The position numbers and the translations under genes are program-made. From IMG/VR virus record IMGVR_UViG_3300031801_000010, positions 1 through 29,975 of that record: 29,975 nucleotides of DNA. The stretch is one strand, 5' to 3'. The notes below the pieces were generated by a model, which was not told where the DNA came from, did no database searches, and worked only from the letters and a program-made list of their open reading frames with translations. This document shows, piece by piece, positions 7,191-15,639 of this stretch (positions within the stretch are counted from its first letter, which is position 1; each line of letters starts with the position of its first letter). The DNA is from a virus.

Positions 7191-7263
7191 TTTCTTTAAG
7201 CGGTTTCTCTTTAGGTTCAATCTCTTGAGTAATAACAGTATCTACTACTTTAATAAAACTCAT
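7093..7263 (-). CDS. Short overlapping frame with strong ribosome-binding site (56 aa)
   Basis: The frame starts at an ATG at 7263 that overlaps the upstream TAA (TAATG) and is preceded at ideal distance by GGGAGG. It reads MSFIKVVDTVITQEIEPKEK... and ends at a TAG at 7095-7093. Its last two thirds overlap the 6795-7190 gene in another frame. The first ~24 codons occupy otherwise non-coding DNA and look protein-like. It may be a real small protein, a leader for coupling, or the N-terminal part of the next protein joined by a +1 frameshift. Confidence 0.35.
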   Translation of the reverse strand: MSFIKVVDTVITQEIEPKEKPLKENDGKTTNRVVFSEVKQSKYDVLYGYPLQRPPG

Positions 7264-7616
7264 TAAACCTCCCAGTAAGGTACTCCACCAGATCGACCGT
7301 TTGAAACTCCGGGTGGTTTAGAACCTTTGGAAAAATGACCGGTATTTTTATCTCGAAGAAGAACCTTTTGTGATGGGTAAATTCGCCCTTCGTGGATGGA
7401 GGTAAGTGCTTCTTCGTTTCCTTCATTTGCGTGAGCAACTTCTAACGCATCGGCAAACCTGGAAGCAAGATCAGGTCCCGTTGCTTCTTCTACTTCCAAA
7501 TACTCTTCCACTTGCTTGACCAATGCTTTTTTCGTTAGACGACGGTCAAGTTCAATACCAACTGTTCTCCCATATTCTTCGAGAGCCTTTTTATTCATTT
7601 TTTTAAGGTCTTTCAT
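7263..7616 (-). CDS. Unknown protein with N-terminal HeH/SAP-like motif
   Basis: A 117-aa protein. Residues 1-40 (KKMNKKALEEYGRTVGIELDRRLTKKALVKQVEEYL) fit a helix-extended-helix/SAP-like motif, found in several phage DNA-binding or virion-associated proteins. The remainder is polar, ending HFSKGSKPPGVSNGRSGGVPYWEV, without a recognised domain. An AATAAATA element lies just upstream. Its neighbours suggest a late gene; the DNA-binding role is inferred. Confidence 0.65.
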   Translation of the reverse strand: MKDLKKMNKKALEEYGRTVGIELDRRLTKKALVKQVEEYLEVEEATGPDLASRFADALEVAHANEGNEEALTSIHEGRIYPSQKVLLRDKNTGHFSKGSKPPGVSNGRSGGVPYWEV

Positions 7617-7784: not shown

Positions 7785-10700
7785 TTATGCGATGTAACAA
7801 TTCAATTCATATCCGTGCTTACCTTTGCCATAGATTTGAATTTGTAGTTTCTTTTTTTGTTCTTTGCCCTGTTTTTCCAAGGCAATTTTAAATATATTAG
7901 TCTTGCCTTCATTAGGCTTGCGAGGACCAGTTGCAACCTTGTTGAAATAATCATCCATATCAACTTCATAACCTGCCTTATCTGCCACGATTAGTGCTTC
8001 TTCTACTGCGGCCGTGTAAGTCTTGTGGTCTATCTTATATTTATAGGCTTCTGTAAAAAGAACAACGTAGTTTTCCTCTTCTTCTTTCATCGCACTATCT
8101 AAAGCGGGAGAAGATCCCTTATATTTCTTTAGATATTTTTTGGCTAAGTGCTTACCCATTATGGAAAATATTTTATCTCTAGGTTCTGTATCACCTGGAA
8201 TCTGCTTTGCTGAGGGTAATTTTCCTTTTTTCAGAATAGTGGCAGTAGCTAACATATCGTCCTTATCAATTCCTCCACTTTTCTTTGCATATTTTTCTAA
8301 TTCTACTCCAGCAGAAATTGAACCATTGTATATGTCATTTCTTGAAGATTCAAAAATGAATGGTCTATTGTAGTAATCGGCAAATGATTCCATTTTTCTC
8401 AATCGAGGCTCTCTACGGTTCTTAGAAGGATCCTCGTTTCGTAAATTCTTAGGGTCGTTATTCAAAGGATTATTATCCTTATGACCTACATCTTTACCTT
8501 CTTCAGTCTTGTCGCCCATAACTCTACGTGCTTGATTACGGGAAGAACGTCTAGCAATCTGTTCAGGCTTGCCTTGGTAATTGTCGTATTCTTTACGATA
8601 ATCCCTATCTTCAAATACTCCAGAAGGTATAGACTTTTTCATATACCTAACTATTTCCTCTGTTGATTTAACATCACTTACTGCTGTGATCTTAATTTTT
8701 CCATTCTTCCATCTAGCTATTTGTTGACTGCCCATACCACTTTTCTCTAAAGTCATACCATCGGTACTAAGCATTCTTCCTTCTAAAGGCTTTTTATCAT
8801 AAAAAGCATCTATAACAGATTTATCTTTTGATTTGAGGACTTCGGTGATAGTGGCGGCTTCAAGTTTAAGAGTGGGCCATCCACCCTTTTTGAAAGATTT
8901 TTCAAATGCTTTTTGAGCTTTCTTTTTATCACTTTTCTTGATTGTTATTGAATTATTCTTTGTAGAATATTTTATTCCAGCATCATCTAATGCCATTTTT
9001 GCTTGTAGTTCCTGAGTTTCAAATATATCAACTTCTTCTTTGATTTTATGAGCAGGTACTTTTTCGGATCGGCGCTCACCTACGTCTACAACATAAAATG
9101 GACTTCCTGGACCCTGATCATCGTATCTAACAATTTTTCCTGTCACCATACCCTTACCTTTGGCTGGGTGAGCGACTTTCACTTTTGTTCCTTTCTTCAA
9201 TATTTTTGCTTTGGCTGCCTTTCTTTTATTATTGTACATATCAATACCGCTTGAATCCACTTCTCCTAGTTCCATTTCTTCCTTTGTAAAACTCTTAACT
9301 GAAACACCCATATCACCTTGTGCCATTGATACCTTATTACCTCTCTTATACAAATAATGTTTAACACTATTTGGTTTTGTAACACTTTTCAAAGTTATTT
9401 TTCCTACTTTAGCTTTACCAACCACATTTTTTGCTGACACTTTAAATGATGCTTTGCCACCTGACATAGCACTTCCATACTCTATTACAACAGTATCACC
9501 TTTCTTTAGAGCATCGTAGTCTTTTGCAGTAATTTCTTCTGTGATAAGAAAGATTTTCCCTTCTGCTACAATAACACCTTCAGCGGCTGCCTGTGCTTCA
9601 ATTTCATCTTCGAGAGACAGTTCAATCTCCTTTTGTGTCATTTTTTTATGACTTTTCCTGAATTCAGCGGCTGCCTTAGCGACTTCTTTTTTAGAAACTG
9701 CTAGTTTTTTGATTTTACCACCCTTTTTCAGAAAAGCGGCAATTTCTTTTTCATATGCAGATTTCCCTTCAGCCACTTCGACTTCCTCTCTCCAGACAAT
9801 GGCTAGCCATTTACCATCTCTTTTATTTTGAAACGCTTTACCACGAATTTCTTTTGCTTTTTTCTCTGCATCTTTTTGGTTGTCAAATAAATGAGCTTGT
9901 TTTACTTTCTTTTGTTTTCCATCTTTTCCGCGTGCTATAGTCGGTCCCAAAAGAGCCTCATCAACATCTTCTTCACCTATATGGATTTTATCGTTTTTCT
10001 TTTTCCAATCTTTCATCTGCTGTCTTATTTGTCTTGGTGTTCCTTTAAAGACAGGAGACTTCTCTTTCTTCTTTTCATCAATCTCAACTTCTTCCTTGAT
10101 AAGTCCTTCAAACTCACTTTTATTTTTCTTGAACCAATCAGTCATTTTCTTTACTGCATCTGATGGGCTTTTCGCAGATATTTTTCTAAACTTAACGGGC
10201 AATCTTCCCATAATCTTTCCTATGGAAAACTTAGACATAGGAATAGCTTTGCCAAAATTATCTGTTAAATGCATCATATATTTAGAATGTGCCGGAGCAT
10301 TGAGCAAATCAACACCCTTTGCTTTTGCTTTTGGAATTACTGCAAATACGAAAGTAATTCCTCCACCTAAAGGAGCACCATATGCACCTGTAGTGAATTG
10401 TTTATCGGGGAAATTCTTAGCCATTTCAGAATCAAATTGTTTCTTCGCTGGCTCAATGGCTGACTTAATATCTTCTGGTGACATTTCTTCGTCTATTTCT
10501 ACTTCTTCTTTACGTTTGGCTTTCTTATCACCCTTTTTTCGAGTAAATTTTATACTTCCAACTCCCAAATCATCATAATCTCTAGGGCTTCGGTATTTTG
10601 CTTCTTTTATATCTTTTATGCCTCCAACAGGTGCTTTGATTTTATCTACTGCCATTCTTCGTGCAACTTTACCTCTGTATCCTTTATCTACATATAGAGA

Positions 10701-10934
10701 TCCATTTTTAAAATGAAATTCTACACCTGAAAATGCGTTTTTCATCCATAAACTAACTGTCTTTTCATATCCTTCATCAATCTCAACATCATCTGTCATT
10801 GCCTTTAAACCTTTTCTTTTTCTATATTCATCTTTTTTGATTTTTTTGTGTCTTGAACCTGCATAAGCAGGCTTGTCAGGATCATATTTTTCTTCTGTAT
10901 CTGACCGATATTCTTTGAAATGTGCTATACTCAT
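7785..10934 (-). CDS. 1049-aa modular Lys-rich protein with repeated [ILV]xE linkers; candidate capsid-packaged polyprotein
   Basis: A very basic, modular protein. Similar short linkers separate unlike domains: EIDE at 51-54, EEVEIDE at 143-149 and 281-287, DVDE at 323-326, EEVEVAE at 383-389, VIVAE at 454-458, MELGE at 554-558, EEVDIFE at 633-639, TITE at 695-698, VFE at 773-775 and IFE at 860-862. These end in [ILV]-x-E, the type of site cleaved by T4 prohead protease gp21 ((L/I)xE). Cutting there would give about twelve pieces of 35-140 aa. Residues ~565-635 look like an SH3/KOW-type barrel (KKGTKVKVAHPAKGKGMVTGKIV); ~776-845 look like an HNH nuclease (DVGHKDNNPLNNDPKNLRNE...NR). The N-terminus carries HFKEYRS, reminiscent of the neighbouring capsid-targeting leaders. 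The ATG has a strong GGGGAAA site. I infer an internal head polyprotein; a large scaffold or tail protein is the alternative. Confidence 0.8.
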   Translation of the reverse strand: MSIAHFKEYRSDTEEKYDPDKPAYAGSRHKKIKKDEYRKRKGLKAMTDDVEIDEGYEKTVSLWMKNAFSGVEFHFKNGSLYVDKGYRGKVARRMAVDKIKAPVGGIKDIKEAKYRSPRDYDDLGVGSIKFTRKKGDKKAKRKEEVEIDEEMSPEDIKSAIEPAKKQFDSEMAKNFPDKQFTTGAYGAPLGGGITFVFAVIPKAKAKGVDLLNAPAHSKYMMHLTDNFGKAIPMSKFSIGKIMGRLPVKFRKISAKSPSDAVKKMTDWFKKNKSEFEGLIKEEVEIDEKKKEKSPVFKGTPRQIRQQMKDWKKKNDKIHIGEEDVDEALLGPTIARGKDGKQKKVKQAHLFDNQKDAEKKAKEIRGKAFQNKRDGKWLAIVWREEVEVAEGKSAYEKEIAAFLKKGGKIKKLAVSKKEVAKAAAEFRKSHKKMTQKEIELSLEDEIEAQAAAEGVIVAEGKIFLITEEITAKDYDALKKGDTVVIEYGSAMSGGKASFKVSAKNVVGKAKVGKITLKSVTKPNSVKHYLYKRGNKVSMAQGDMGVSVKSFTKEEMELGEVDSSGIDMYNNKRKAAKAKILKKGTKVKVAHPAKGKGMVTGKIVRYDDQGPGSPFYVVDVGERRSEKVPAHKIKEEVDIFETQELQAKMALDDAGIKYSTKNNSITIKKSDKKKAQKAFEKSFKKGGWPTLKLEAATITEVLKSKDKSVIDAFYDKKPLEGRMLSTDGMTLEKSGMGSQQIARWKNGKIKITAVSDVKSTEEIVRYMKKSIPSGVFEDRDYRKEYDNYQGKPEQIARRSSRNQARRVMGDKTEEGKDVGHKDNNPLNNDPKNLRNEDPSKNRREPRLRKMESFADYYNRPFIFESSRNDIYNGSISAGVELEKYAKKSGGIDKDDMLATATILKKGKLPSAKQIPGDTEPRDKIFSIMGKHLAKKYLKKYKGSSPALDSAMKEEEENYVVLFTEAYKYKIDHKTYTAAVEEALIVADKAGYEVDMDDYFNKVATGPRKPNEGKTNIFKIALEKQGKEQKKKLQIQIYGKGKHGYELNCYIA

Positions 10935-11736: not shown

Positions 11737-12012
11737 CTATCTTTTATAAAGTTTCTTAAAATCTATTCCGCCCGACATATTAACTTCCTTTTCAAGTTCT
11801 TTTGGAGTTATCTGTTTTAATTTAGCTTTTTCAAAATAACTGTTTTTTCCGTGTGTCATTACAAACTTTAAAAACATATTTTCTCCCTTCACGCCGACTT
11901 TACCTGTATACCAAGAGGCTCCATCATACGCAACAAACTTTTGAGTATTATCAAAAGATGGATCCAGATAATATTCTGTTTTTTCGGTTAAATGCTGTTT
12001 AAATGTTTTCAT
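11737..12012 (-). CDS. Small protein with capsid-targeting-like N-terminus
   Basis: A 91-aa protein whose first ten residues, MKTFKQHLTE, align without gaps to the T4 internal-protein capsid-targeting peptide (as I recall it, MKTYQEFIAE): M-K-T-aromatic, a second aromatic/His at 7, Leu/Ile at 8 and Glu at 10, where T4 protease gp21 would cut. The mature part (KTEYYLDPSFD...) is a small beta-rich domain of unknown function ending FKKLYKR. The ATG overlaps the stop of the upstream cytidylyltransferase-like gene (ATGA). I infer packaging in the head. Confidence 0.75.
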   Translation of the reverse strand: MKTFKQHLTEKTEYYLDPSFDNTQKFVAYDGASWYTGKVGVKGENMFLKFVMTHGKNSYFEKAKLKQITPKELEKEVNMSGGIDFKKLYKR

Positions 12013-12965
12013 AAGTATTTTTCTGGTATTTTTAGAATTTCTCCGCCCTCAATATATTTTCCCCGATTTTTCAAATGATGTTTTACTGTTTTTTGTAAAC
12101 TCTTATCCGTACCAGGAATGAATTCAGTCTGTGCTTTTGTGCCAGAGGCAAAATTAGTTGCTTCTATTTCTTTCCAATGTATTATTGCAATATGAGTATT
12201 GCCTGGTCTTAGTCTTACATTTTGAGTGTAAGATTTACCACCTGATTTTAGTGTTACTTTTTGGGGCTTTACATATTCTTTAAATGTTTTCATAGAAGTA
12301 TCATCTATTTCATCATCGGCAAAGGTCTCACCTGGAGTAATTGATTTATATTTTTTCGTTGTTCGGTTTGTACCAAACTCCAGATACTCTTCTTTAATGC
12401 CAAGACCTTTTCTTACAGCATCGTATATTGTTTTAGTAATGGTATCATCGGCAGCTGAGGGCATACCTTCTTTATATGATTCAAAATCTCCATCGGCGGC
12501 AAACTTTCTCATCTTTGAGGCACTCATCTCATTACCATCTCCTCGAGCGACTCCTGCTTGAACTACTTCAAAGTGATCAAACCCATATGAGTCAACATAT
12601 GGTCGCATATATTTTTCAAATCTGGCAACCCTGTCAGAGCCAACCACCATTGTTACGTTTTTATATCCTTTACCAGATAACCATTCTAGAGCATCGAAAG
12701 CCGTTATAATTTTGGTATTCTTTACTATTATCTTTCCCCAAAAATGCTTGAGAAATTTTGTCTTGTCTTTATAAGACAGGGGATTCTTTTTCTTATCTTG
12801 AGTCTGACTGGTAAATATCAACGGGTTACCGCCTCGACTCTTAGCCTGCTTGATGACATCTTTAATCATTATTTCGTGTCCGGCAGTAACAGGATTAAAT
12901 CGTCCAAATGTGAATATGACGGGCTTACTCTTCGCTTCCTCTAGATATTCATCGTAAGTTAACAT
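12009..12965 (-). CDS. Cytidylyltransferase-like nucleotidyltransferase with capsid-targeting-like leader
   Basis: I choose the ATG at 12965, which overlaps the upstream stop as TAATG and follows GGGG; a TTG three codons earlier is less likely. This gives 318 aa. Residues 1-10 (MLTYDEYLEE) fit the capsid-targeting pattern with E10 as the cut site. Residues 16-155 form a nucleotidyltransferase fold: FTFGRFNPVTAGHE (TAGH in place of HxGH), VVGSDR (108-112 region), and SASKMRKF matching the 'S.S..R' nucleotide-binding loop. It probably transfers a nucleotide from NTP to an unknown acceptor (NMN, phospho-alcohol or sugar). From residue 225 a second leader-like MKTFKEYVK begins a separate ~94-aa C-terminal module, suggesting a gene fusion. 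Confidence 0.85.
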   Translation of the reverse strand: MLTYDEYLEEAKSKPVIFTFGRFNPVTAGHEIMIKDVIKQAKSRGGNPLIFTSQTQDKKKNPLSYKDKTKFLKHFWGKIIVKNTKIITAFDALEWLSGKGYKNVTMVVGSDRVARFEKYMRPYVDSYGFDHFEVVQAGVARGDGNEMSASKMRKFAADGDFESYKEGMPSAADDTITKTIYDAVRKGLGIKEEYLEFGTNRTTKKYKSITPGETFADDEIDDTSMKTFKEYVKPQKVTLKSGGKSYTQNVRLRPGNTHIAIIHWKEIEATNFASGTKAQTEFIPGTDKSLQKTVKHHLKNRGKYIEGGEILKIPEKYL

Positions 12966-14197
12966 TATCCCCAACTCTTAATGGCATTGAAATTATTCCT
13001 ACTGAATTCCAATCTATTTACTAATTTAATTGCTTTGTTACTCATATGATCGACAGCGACAAATCCCTCAGGACCAGTAACTTTATAACCAGTAGCCGTT
13101 TTCATAAATGCTGGAATAGAATTTACTTGCTCCATCTTCTTAATGAGGGTTAGTTTTATATCTGCAACATTATTGTGCCACTCTAACGCATAAGCGAAAG
13201 TGCCTCCAATCTTTCTATCCGAATTCAATGATTTAACCATTTCTTCGGCTTTTGCTAGTTTTTTAGCTTTCGCTTTTTCAGTCTTTACTTTATCCGCTTT
13301 AGCTTGATAACGTTTTCGGATAAAATCAATAAATGAACCGATTGCTTTTTGTTTGTTTGAGAATTTCTTCCCTGAGCTAACCATATCATTAATATAGATT
13401 TTTACGTTAAAGGCTATTGTATCTTCTTTCTGGTCAGAAAACAATACTTTCATACCTTGTTTGCTGAGTCTCTTTAGTGATGCTCTGGCTTTATTTATTT
13501 CTCCCTTAACATCTGATAACTCGCTTTTCGTTAGTGTAGCAGTACCAGATACATCTTTAAAATCTGTGTCTCCTGCCCATACGGCCGCAGTTTTTGTTAG
13601 TGCGCCAACATTAACTGAGAATACCGCAGATAGGTCTGCGATTGTATCTCCCGTGTATGATGTGTGCCAAATAACTCCAACTTTAGCTGATAAAATCTGT
13701 TTCGCAAGTGGTTGATCAGCCGGGACAGCGTAGGTTATAGTATTCGGAGTAAAGGTGATCATCGACTCTCCATCGATGGTTTCTTTCTTTAAGTCTGAAG
13801 GTACAAACATAAAATCTCCTTGAATAATACCATCAATACCTAATTTCGGGAATTGGGCTAATGCTATTTTCATTTTCGTTGCTAAATCGCCGGAGTGATT
13901 AGCACTAATGTCAGCATCCGTATAATTAATTTTAGGAGTCTTATTGAATAAAGATTTAGTCGCTACAAAGAATTTTCCATTTTCTGGATTAGTTCCTGCA
14001 ATGATTGATGGAGCACCATCTACTTTGCTCTGTATATTGACACTCGATGAAGCAGAACCTTGGAGTGAGGCAACTATCTCCTCTAGTATTCGTAAAGCAT
14101 CTACGGCTCCTCCATAACCCTGATTAAATAGAGCATCTTCTAAATGCTCTAAATGTTTGAGTTTTTCTTCCGCTAAATAGGCATTGAATCTTTTCAT
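12965..14197 (-). CDS. Nucleotidyl ligase-like protein (KxDG) with capsid-targeting-like leader
   Basis: A 410-aa protein. Residues 1-10 (MKRFNAYLAE) match the capsid-targeting pattern. SVNIQSKVDGAPSIIAG (53-67) contains K58-V-D-G61, the adenylation motif I of DNA/RNA ligases, followed by a Phe/Thr-rich segment (KFFVATKSLFNK) like motif Ib, IDGIIQGDFMF (121-131) like motif III, and ALEWHNNVADIKLTLIKK near the C-terminus, a candidate motif V with alternating Lys. A Lys/Ala-rich helix (KADKVKTEKAKAKKLAKAEE) lies between. It could seal DNA or RNA breaks, or act on tRNA, after delivery into the host; this is inferred. The family is probably DUF6267-like, which I cannot confirm. Coupled at both ends (overlap with 14197 and 12965). 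Confidence 0.8.
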   Translation of the reverse strand: MKRFNAYLAEEKLKHLEHLEDALFNQGYGGAVDALRILEEIVASLQGSASSSVNIQSKVDGAPSIIAGTNPENGKFFVATKSLFNKTPKINYTDADISANHSGDLATKMKIALAQFPKLGIDGIIQGDFMFVPSDLKKETIDGESMITFTPNTITYAVPADQPLAKQILSAKVGVIWHTSYTGDTIADLSAVFSVNVGALTKTAAVWAGDTDFKDVSGTATLTKSELSDVKGEINKARASLKRLSKQGMKVLFSDQKEDTIAFNVKIYINDMVSSGKKFSNKQKAIGSFIDFIRKRYQAKADKVKTEKAKAKKLAKAEEMVKSLNSDRKIGGTFAYALEWHNNVADIKLTLIKKMEQVNSIPAFMKTATGYKVTGPEGFVAVDHMSNKAIKLVNRLEFSRNNFNAIKSWG

Positions 14198-15639
14198 TAT
14201 GCTTCTTTAAATCCTATTGGACGATTTCCAGGTGCTTTAGCCATACCGTTGTAACTAAATCTAAATTCATTTTTAGAAAATTTGATAATAGATATTGTTG
14301 TATCTGTAGCAGACATATTCACGGTAACTTGAGAAATGAAATTACCAAAGTCTGCTAATAAATTTAAGGCTTCTTTATATTCCGTTTTAGCATTCAGATA
14401 AGATACTATATAACTACCTAGAGGATAAATCAAGTATCCTCCATTATATTCGTTTTTATTACTCGTTTTGAACATATCTTTCAATGAAGCATCTGATGCC
14501 GCTGGAGTCTTTCCGGGTTGGTCGGATAATACTTTGTCATACACCTTTTTCATTATAGCGATAAAATGGACTTCACTTCTCTTTTTTCTCATTGCTCGAA
14601 TCCACTTGACTAATGCGGTAGTAGATATTTCTCTAAGTTTTGCGCCTTTGGACATTATACCAAGTATTTCCCGTATCTTTTTTGGCTCAAGAGTATCAAT
14701 GAAATCTATGATATTTCCAACAGTATTTCTGCCCTTGTAGTTTACTAAAGCATCGATAGTTTCTAATTCATCCATATGTTTCTGGACAAAAGTATTATTG
14801 ACCGAAAAATTCTTCTTAATAAAATTTAAATTTATTAATGATGTTGAACTACCGCCGGCAGCCTTTACACTATAATAGTGCAATCTACCTTTTTTATCTT
14901 TACCATAAAAATCATATAATCCTTCACTAATATTTGAAGGAAAACCAACGGTTGTCATTTTCTTGTTAGTATGAATAATGTATAATGCTCCAAGAACTTC
15001 ACCAAAATTTTTACTCAAAATTTTGATATCTGATGCGACGACCTCAAATGTATTTGAAGTAGTATATGTTTTTGTGAATCTAGGTGCTGATCCTTCTGTG
15101 AGTCCAGAGCCAGAAATAAGTTTACAAAATTCAGAAAGATATTTCTTAATATCCTTATATTCATCGCCACCATATTTTTGATTTATTTTAGTTGAAACAG
15201 TCGTTACTAAGGCGCTAGATGAGGAAAATTCTTCTCCTCCTAAAGATAATTTATCAGGAGTAAACTCTTTTGAATTTTTTCCACCACTAATAACGCCACC
15301 TTCTTGTTTATCAGAATCCGGTTTACTAATGTTTCCGATACTTACAAATCCTGCTTTAGTTTCGTCTTTAATTTTTACTTTAGCATACGTAGATACACCA
15401 GATTTTGTCACATTCTTAGACATAATCTGAAGTTTAGTGCCTTTTGAATGGCTACTTTGTTTTTCTTTAGAGTCAAGGGAGGATAAAACAGAAGAGTCCT
15501 TAGATAAAGAATGAATATATCCATCACTTTTCTTCCAAGTTGGAACGATATAATAGTCCCACTTTGACATCCCTCCAGACCGTGAATTGCCGGATAAACT
15601 TGCTTCAGAAATAGAACGATAAGATTTAAAACAGAGCAT
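14197..15639 (-). CDS. 480-aa protein with targeting-like leader and possible nuclease domain
   Basis: The N-terminus MLCFKSYRSISEASLS carries a longer variant of the leader: aromatic residues at 4 and 7 and I-S-E at 10-12, a plausible prohead protease site followed by Ala. Residues ~30-105 look like an SH3-type barrel (KGTKLQIMSKNVTKSGVSTYAKVKIKDETKAGFVSI). Residues ~205-262 contain NFGEVLGALYII (E214), then GLYDFYG (D243) and HYYSVKAAGG (K259), the E-D-xK layout of PD-(D/E)XK nucleases. The rest is helical and unassigned. It is the first gene after a good late promoter and the head of a coupled run of four genes. Role as a packaged nuclease is inferred. Confidence 0.75.
   Translation of the reverse strand: MLCFKSYRSISEASLSGNSRSGGMSKWDYYIVPTWKKSDGYIHSLSKDSSVLSSLDSKEKQSSHSKGTKLQIMSKNVTKSGVSTYAKVKIKDETKAGFVSIGNISKPDSDKQEGGVISGGKNSKEFTPDKLSLGGEEFSSSSALVTTVSTKINQKYGGDEYKDIKKYLSEFCKLISGSGLTEGSAPRFTKTYTTSNTFEVVASDIKILSKNFGEVLGALYIIHTNKKMTTVGFPSNISEGLYDFYGKDKKGRLHYYSVKAAGGSSTSLINLNFIKKNFSVNNTFVQKHMDELETIDALVNYKGRNTVGNIIDFIDTLEPKKIREILGIMSKGAKLREISTTALVKWIRAMRKKRSEVHFIAIMKKVYDKVLSDQPGKTPAASDASLKDMFKTSNKNEYNGGYLIYPLGSYIVSYLNAKTEYKEALNLLADFGNFISQVTVNMSATDTTISIIKFSKNEFRFSYNGMAKAPGNRPIGFKEA

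Follow-up and report, generated by a model that had tools for sequence, protein, structure and literature searches.

A modular T4-like phage protein with linkers resembling prohead-protease sites: a probable cargo polyprotein of the phage head

Why should a single phage gene encode a chain of unlike modules joined by nearly the same short acidic sequence? The question is raised by an open reading frame (ORF) in the virus record IMGVR_UViG_3300031801_000010, which was analysed as a single stretch of 29,975 bases, referred to here as the window. The window contains a T4-like set of genes (UvsX, a DnaB-type helicase, primase, DNA polymerase, clamp and clamp loader), by which it is judged to be a fragment of an uncultured T4-like myovirus; this appears to be a marine virus of bacteria. 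The ORF lies between helicase and primase, among the replication genes. We consider it probable (about 0.78) that it encodes a polyprotein of cargo for the phage head, cut by a gp21-type prohead protease. The ORF and its predicted modules are listed below, with ^ marking a predicted cut.

7785..10934, reverse strand: modular polyprotein ORF, 1049 aa, 118 kDa, pI 9.6, 17% Lys
10773..10934, reverse strand: putative N-terminal propeptide (aa 1-54), MSIAHFKEY...DDVEIDE^, with an FxxY core resembling a capsid targeting sequence
10488..10772, reverse strand: M1 (aa 55-149), ends EEVEIDE^
10074..10487, reverse strand: M2 (aa 150-287), ends EEVEIDE^; an internal module in contig L007
9957..10073, reverse strand: M3, short (aa 288-326), ends EEDVDE^
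9768..9956, reverse strand: M4 (aa 327-389), ends EEVEVAE^; placed after M7 in contig L002
9561..9767, reverse strand: M5 (aa 390-458), ends VIVAE^
9261..9560, reverse strand: M6 (aa 459-558), ends EEMELGE^; in about 20 contigs, with differing neighbours
9018..9260, reverse strand: M7 (aa 559-639), ends EEVDIFE^
8841..9017, reverse strand: M8 (aa 640-698), ends TITE^
8610..8840, reverse strand: M9 (aa 699-775), ends GVFE^; duplicated in L002
8397..8609, reverse strand: M10, the HNH module (aa 776-846), also stand-alone in small genes
8349..8393, reverse strand: internal sequence like a capsid targeting sequence, MESFADYYNRPFIFE^ (aa 848-862)
8049..8348, reverse strand: M11 (aa 863-962), ends LFTE^
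7788..8048, reverse strand: M12, C-terminal (aa 963-1049); at least 15 other contigs have it at the C-terminus or inside the chain

The ORF is rich in Lys and Glu. EEVEIDE occurs in it twice, with the variants DDVEIDE, EEVEVAE, EEMELGE and EEVDIFE. This recurrence, on which the original prediction was built, is confirmed: EE[VIM][DE][IVL]xE is found five times against 0.003 expected per composition shuffle, and the five matches to the near-identical strict motif among the 40 non-overlapping ORFs of the window all fall in this one. Eleven or more [ILV]xE linker ends, 35-140 aa apart, had also been claimed. Candidate ends are indeed present at E54, E149, E287, E326, E389, E458, E558, E639, E698, E775 and E862, with a further FTE at E962, and are 39-138 aa apart, but their number does not exceed chance, bare [ILV]xE occurring 19 times against 14.5 in shuffles (p=0.12). 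We therefore discarded the bare count as evidence; eleven sites alone prove nothing, and the linker case rests on the acidic context and on comparative data. T4 internal head proteins are small basic products with L/I-x-E sites, and in the ORF five of the eleven [ILV]xE ends lie in the acidic motif. Cuts at E54 to E862 and at E962 would give products of 4.7-15.3 kDa, with a pI of 8.9-9.9 for the cargo, the N-terminal propeptide excepted. The masses were computed with the last cut at 961 in place of E962, a shift that scarcely alters them. Some joints depart from L/I-x-E by having F or V at P3, and junctions in contigs L043 and L041 lack a hydrophobic-x-E.

The HNH-like domain that had been suggested was located at aa 807-832, where phrog_4590 gives the better support (E 8e-9, PHROG) and PF13392 is weak, below the cut-off (E 4.6e-4, Pfam). 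The only other Pfam match on the chain is a weak one to SutA-RBD, no peptidase domain was detected in it, and the SH3/KOW-like guess for M7 received no profile support. AlphaFold2, given five sequences, modelled the whole chain poorly (pLDDT 38). For M6 by itself, and from 18 sequences, it gave a compact beta domain (pLDDT 83, pTM 0.75) in which confidence is low for the final five residues (the linker end MELGE), as expected since the linker would be an exposed joint. Searches of the PDB and Foldseek with the M6 model returned no confident solved relative; its best match among predicted structures is a 93-aa halovirus protein.

When viral contigs were scanned, 281 relatives came to light; of those listed, most match through the HNH module. 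In the closest, L002, most modules are present at 69-99% identity, in a changed order: M4 follows M7, M9 is present twice, M2 is missing, and the edges of the rearranged blocks coincide with predicted cut sites. In L007 successive modules of about 40-65 aa each end in EEVELDE. Across 54 large related ORFs the linker motif occurs 45 times against 0.64 expected. Scans with single modules gave no relatives for M2 among the viral contigs and a single one, L002, for M5; relatives of M1 and M3 were sought and none was found. MAFFT placed fragments wrongly, both when modules were aligned to the full chain and when stand-alone M11 was aligned with M12, and these alignments were left out.

The joints of this shuffling lie at the motif. 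Among 437 non-redundant homology breakpoints 47.6% are within 8 aa of an [ILV]xE, against 25% at random (z about 11), and [ILV]xE, with spacing one and Glu, ranks first among six spacings and the 20 possible P1 residues. Enrichment is also seen for [KR]xE (z 8), but it is strongest for hydrophobic-x-E with spacing one, so a mere Lys/Glu composition effect was rejected as the source of the signal. The HNH module starts R[ND]YRKEYDNYQG and, as a separate small gene, M.RNYRKEY; a hydrophobic-x-E junction precedes it in 29 of 33 distinct fused contexts. Copies of M7, up to 91% identical, are embedded in polyproteins whose first parts are a targeting sequence and a nucleotidyltransferase. The domains found as modules in relatives include NMNAT, PAP2, DUF192 and DUF5824. 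ORFs in L013 (5125-9753, 1543 aa) and L014 (966-4967, 1334 aa) combine cytidylyltransferase, HNH, PAP2 phosphatase and DUF5824 modules. A chain in L010 (6141-7922) begins MGVFKKFLTE and continues with a P-loop kinase-like module (GGPGSGKSYV), the internal targeting sequence MENTQFKEYRNIVTE and further modules.

The modules also occur outside such chains, so that both kinds of copy that had been looked for, stand-alone and reshuffled, exist. M2 is a separate gene in the Pseudomonas phages Paride (Paride_0330) and Astolliot (UOL48850). A homologue of M11 stands alone as a gene of about 83 aa in contigs L142-L150, where it sits between portal and gp21 in the head operon and starts MKSFAEFMTE^S or MKTFTEFFTE^G; it has no match among named phages. 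Fused copies of M11 retain the targeting sequence, as MESFSSFTTE^S in L133, with which MKSFAEFMTE^S of the stand-alone gene aligns, and as MESFADYYNRPFIFE^S in the window. In phage C48C1 three separate genes with targeting sequences correspond to internal polyprotein modules of other phages. These comparisons suggest that single targeting-sequence genes and fused modules interconvert.

The same observations bear on whether the protein might be packaged and injected as one intact polyvalent chain, in which the linkers are flexible, charge-balancing spacers. Phage proteins with 2-15 domains whose packaging is predicted are known (PMC5512222), and the acidic linkers offset the basic modules. A spacer, however, needs no hydrophobic-x-Glu at a fixed spacing, yet this is the best-enriched sequence at breakpoints and is present at the HNH joints, and a targeting and cleavage sequence is common to the stand-alone and internal copies of M11. 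We regard an intact chain as quite improbable.

Packaging in T4 needs no more than the first ten residues of IPIII; within the targeting sequence, residues 4 and 7 affect targeting, residues 8 and 10 affect processing, and the cut by gp21 follows L/I-x-E (PMC9026906). Of 135 window ORFs with 60 aa or more, three match the pattern M..[FY]..[FYHL][ILVMF].E, which is modelled on positions 4, 7, 8 and 10, and all of them lie just upstream of the polyprotein. They are listed here with a fourth ORF that has a loose match.

11737..12012, reverse strand: 91-aa protein, targeting sequence MKTFKQHLTE^K
12009..12965, reverse strand: cytidylyltransferase/NMNAT-like protein, targeting sequence MLTYDEYLEE^A
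12965..14197, reverse strand: DUF6267 protein, targeting sequence MKRFNAYLAE^E
14197..15639, reverse strand: 480-aa protein, loose targeting-like match MLCFKSYRSISE^A

The polyprotein itself starts MSIAHFKEYR, a putative shifted variant in which FKEY is offset by two, and around residue 10 its N-terminus has no clean hydrophobic-x-E. In T4, an Asp at position 10 prevents processing. At the propeptide position, relatives carry FKEYRDDITE^G, FKEYRNIVTE^G and FKQYRNEIHE^G. The cytidylyltransferase ORF contains a second targeting-like sequence, MKTFKEYVKPQ (about 12261-12293, reverse strand), ahead of an additional C-terminal domain, and is apparently two cargo genes fused. In the DUF6267 protein (12965-14197) KVDGAPS and PEGFVAVD recall motifs of ligase/capping nucleotidyltransferases; this reading has no profile support, and a PDB search with the protein found nothing. 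In the 480-aa protein (14197-15639) DFYGK...YYSVKAAGG recalls a PD-(D/E)xK nuclease core, and C48C1 has a similar VSVKSGGGG; the matching place in Synechococcus phage S-SCSM1 is occupied by SSCSM1_90, which is annotated as a virion protein. A 117-aa ORF on the other side of the polyprotein (7263-7616, reverse strand) matches the prohead protease inhibitor families phrog_8608 and phrog_1051 weakly (E 0.005-0.009).

Neither gp21 nor gp23 is present in the 30-kb window. The genomes of relatives encode both gp21 (S77) and gp23, and their gp23 N-termini have the candidate sites FLTE^ or LQE^. In L031 a modular ORF lies directly upstream of gp21-gp22-gp23. A DNA scan of contigs that was independent of the modules, using the eight residues KEEVELDE alone, gave at least 80 loci. 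Among the matches listed, 27 of 82 ORFs contain further linker motifs, 44 against 1.1 expected. Thirteen of the 80 listed loci lie in the portal-gp21 interval, or beside one of these genes where the other is off the contig. NMNAT or DUF6267 genes are found at 32 of the 80, and helicase or primase is near others. The listed loci thus seem to stem largely from two places, the portal-protease interval and the helicase-primase island.

Related modular ORFs between portal gp20 and gp21 stand at the position of T4 gp67/gp68, which raises the alternative that the protein belongs to the prohead core, a scaffold like gp67, gp68 or gp22 whose fragments exit or fill space and are no cargo. In T4, gp21 fragments the core proteins (PMC9026906), and the Lys/Glu-rich composition also suits a core protein. 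Set against this, the modules are conserved domains, some of which are separate genes and which in relatives include HNH, NMNAT, PAP2 and DUF192; M6 is predicted to be a compact fold; and the window copy lies in the helicase-primase island, where the S-SCSM1 counterparts are annotated as virion proteins. A scaffold role is unlikely.

The syntenic island of S-SCSM1, SSCSM1_89 to SSCSM1_97, lies between helicase and primase, and seven of its nine proteins bear a virion annotation, in contrast to the replication genes on either side, of which hardly any do. The S-SCSM1 virion proteins were identified by mass spectrometry (PMC9602691). SSCSM1_91 (NMNAT) has the start MKSFLQFLKE^A, and KEEVELDE^RTRYAKE is present in SSCSM1_92. 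Besides S-SCSM1, the cultured phages with proteins of this kind include Methylophilales phage Melnitz (EXVC044M). Elsewhere in this phage a small gene, S-SCSM1_30 (L151, 44215-44535), starts MKTFKQFMSE^S, a perfect targeting pattern, and has no virion annotation. NMNAT-like proteins have been found in the virions of several cyanophages, and the S-CREM2 authors allow that virion proteins detected by mass spectrometry may be contaminants (PMC10665884). The presence of the syntenic proteins in virions was shown by others, for related phages. It bears on the further alternative that the ORF encodes an early multidomain protein, absent from the virion, which acts in host take-over or DNA binding and in which the linkers are coincidental. 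The ORF does stand among replication genes, and HNH and basic domains suit DNA work. Its neighbours, however, carry targeting sequences, the syntenic island is virion-annotated and the same linker occurs in the head operon, all of which make this alternative very improbable.

We therefore return to a head-cargo polyprotein. The original idea of a packaged, protease-cut chain is supported by the shuffled modules, the targeting sequences, the genomic position and the S-SCSM1 virion annotation; packaging, cutting, injection and the functions of the modules are what we infer from them. The N-terminus, a putative variant of the T4-type capsid targeting sequence, would dock the whole chain in the prohead core, a step proposed because of the targeting sequences and genomic position. 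A gp21-type protease would then cut the acidic linkers behind the Glu of their hydrophobic-x-E ends, typically at K-E-E-V-E/D-L/I-D-E^A/G/K, as suggested by the motif, the joints at it and the presence of the enzyme in relatives. The cuts would release about a dozen basic proteins of 5-15 kDa. On T4 precedent these would remain with the DNA inside the head and pass into the next host. The protease sites may double as cassette joints at which modules are gained, lost, duplicated and reordered. For the roles of the modules, counter-defence or host take-over is a reasonable guess after T4 IPI and Alt.

Several known systems resemble this arrangement in part. T4 IPI, IPII, IPIII and Alt share with it the basic products, predicted here, and the protease, found in relatives; the targeting sequence of T4 internal proteins, with aromatic residues at 4 and 7 and a hydrophobic-x-Glu end, is shared by the window neighbours and stand-alone M11. 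T4, however, has one cargo protein per gene, whereas in the window ORF about a dozen different modules follow one another, mostly with an internal site at the junction. Polyvalent proteins (Iyer et al. 2017; PMC5512222) share the many unlike domains, the shuffling and the predicted delivery with DNA, and the roughly 12 shuffled modules fall within their range of two to 15 domains. They have embedded peptidases (PMC5512222), whereas for the window chain we propose processing in trans by the head protease. Pfam found none of the typical polyvalent-protein domains in the chain; one relative has a sub-threshold match to LPD11. Iyer et al. likened polyvalent proteins to the polyproteins of RNA viruses (PMC5512222).

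The inner-body and ejection proteins of phiKZ and SPN3US are also cut after Glu by gp21-like proteases, some propeptides at several sites. The phiKZ motif is S/A-x-E, and in both phages the cuts strip propeptides and do not separate a chain of unlike cargo. P1 DarA, DarB and Ddr share head packaging with the cargo proposed here and are large defence proteins. For head targeting of DarB its first 30 residues are enough (PMC9024508). DarA is believed to be processed; the P1 genes are separate, and the accessible text reports no repeated inter-domain sites. The NMNAT-like cytidylyltransferases of cyanophage virions (S-SCSM1, S-CREM2, S-CBWM1, S-SZBM1) are homologous to the protein at 12009-12965 of the window; some start with targeting sequences, and some relatives are polyproteins with the same linkers. 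They are described as individual virion proteins with a presumed action on NAD, and the accessible text mentions neither a targeting sequence nor a protease.

The openly licensed literature that was searched gave no description of a prohead protease splitting a cargo polyprotein. Polyproteins are a hallmark of RNA viruses. If the proposal is true, the head-maturation protease of a tailed DNA phage gains a new use, the splitting of a cargo polyprotein, and one gene would deliver many proteins into the next host cell. It would account for large uncharacterised Lys/Glu-rich ORFs in many marine phage contigs and predict small proteins that marine phages inject, and a sequence rule, a targeting sequence plus hydrophobic-x-E linkers, would find cargo from genomes, counter-defence included. 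More broadly, and with less assurance than for the gene itself, we think it rather likely that marine T4-like phages run a head-cargo cassette system, in which prohead-protease sites are the standard joints, single-cargo genes and long polyproteins interconvert, and two gene islands would hold an open-ended, fast-changing repertoire of injected proteins.
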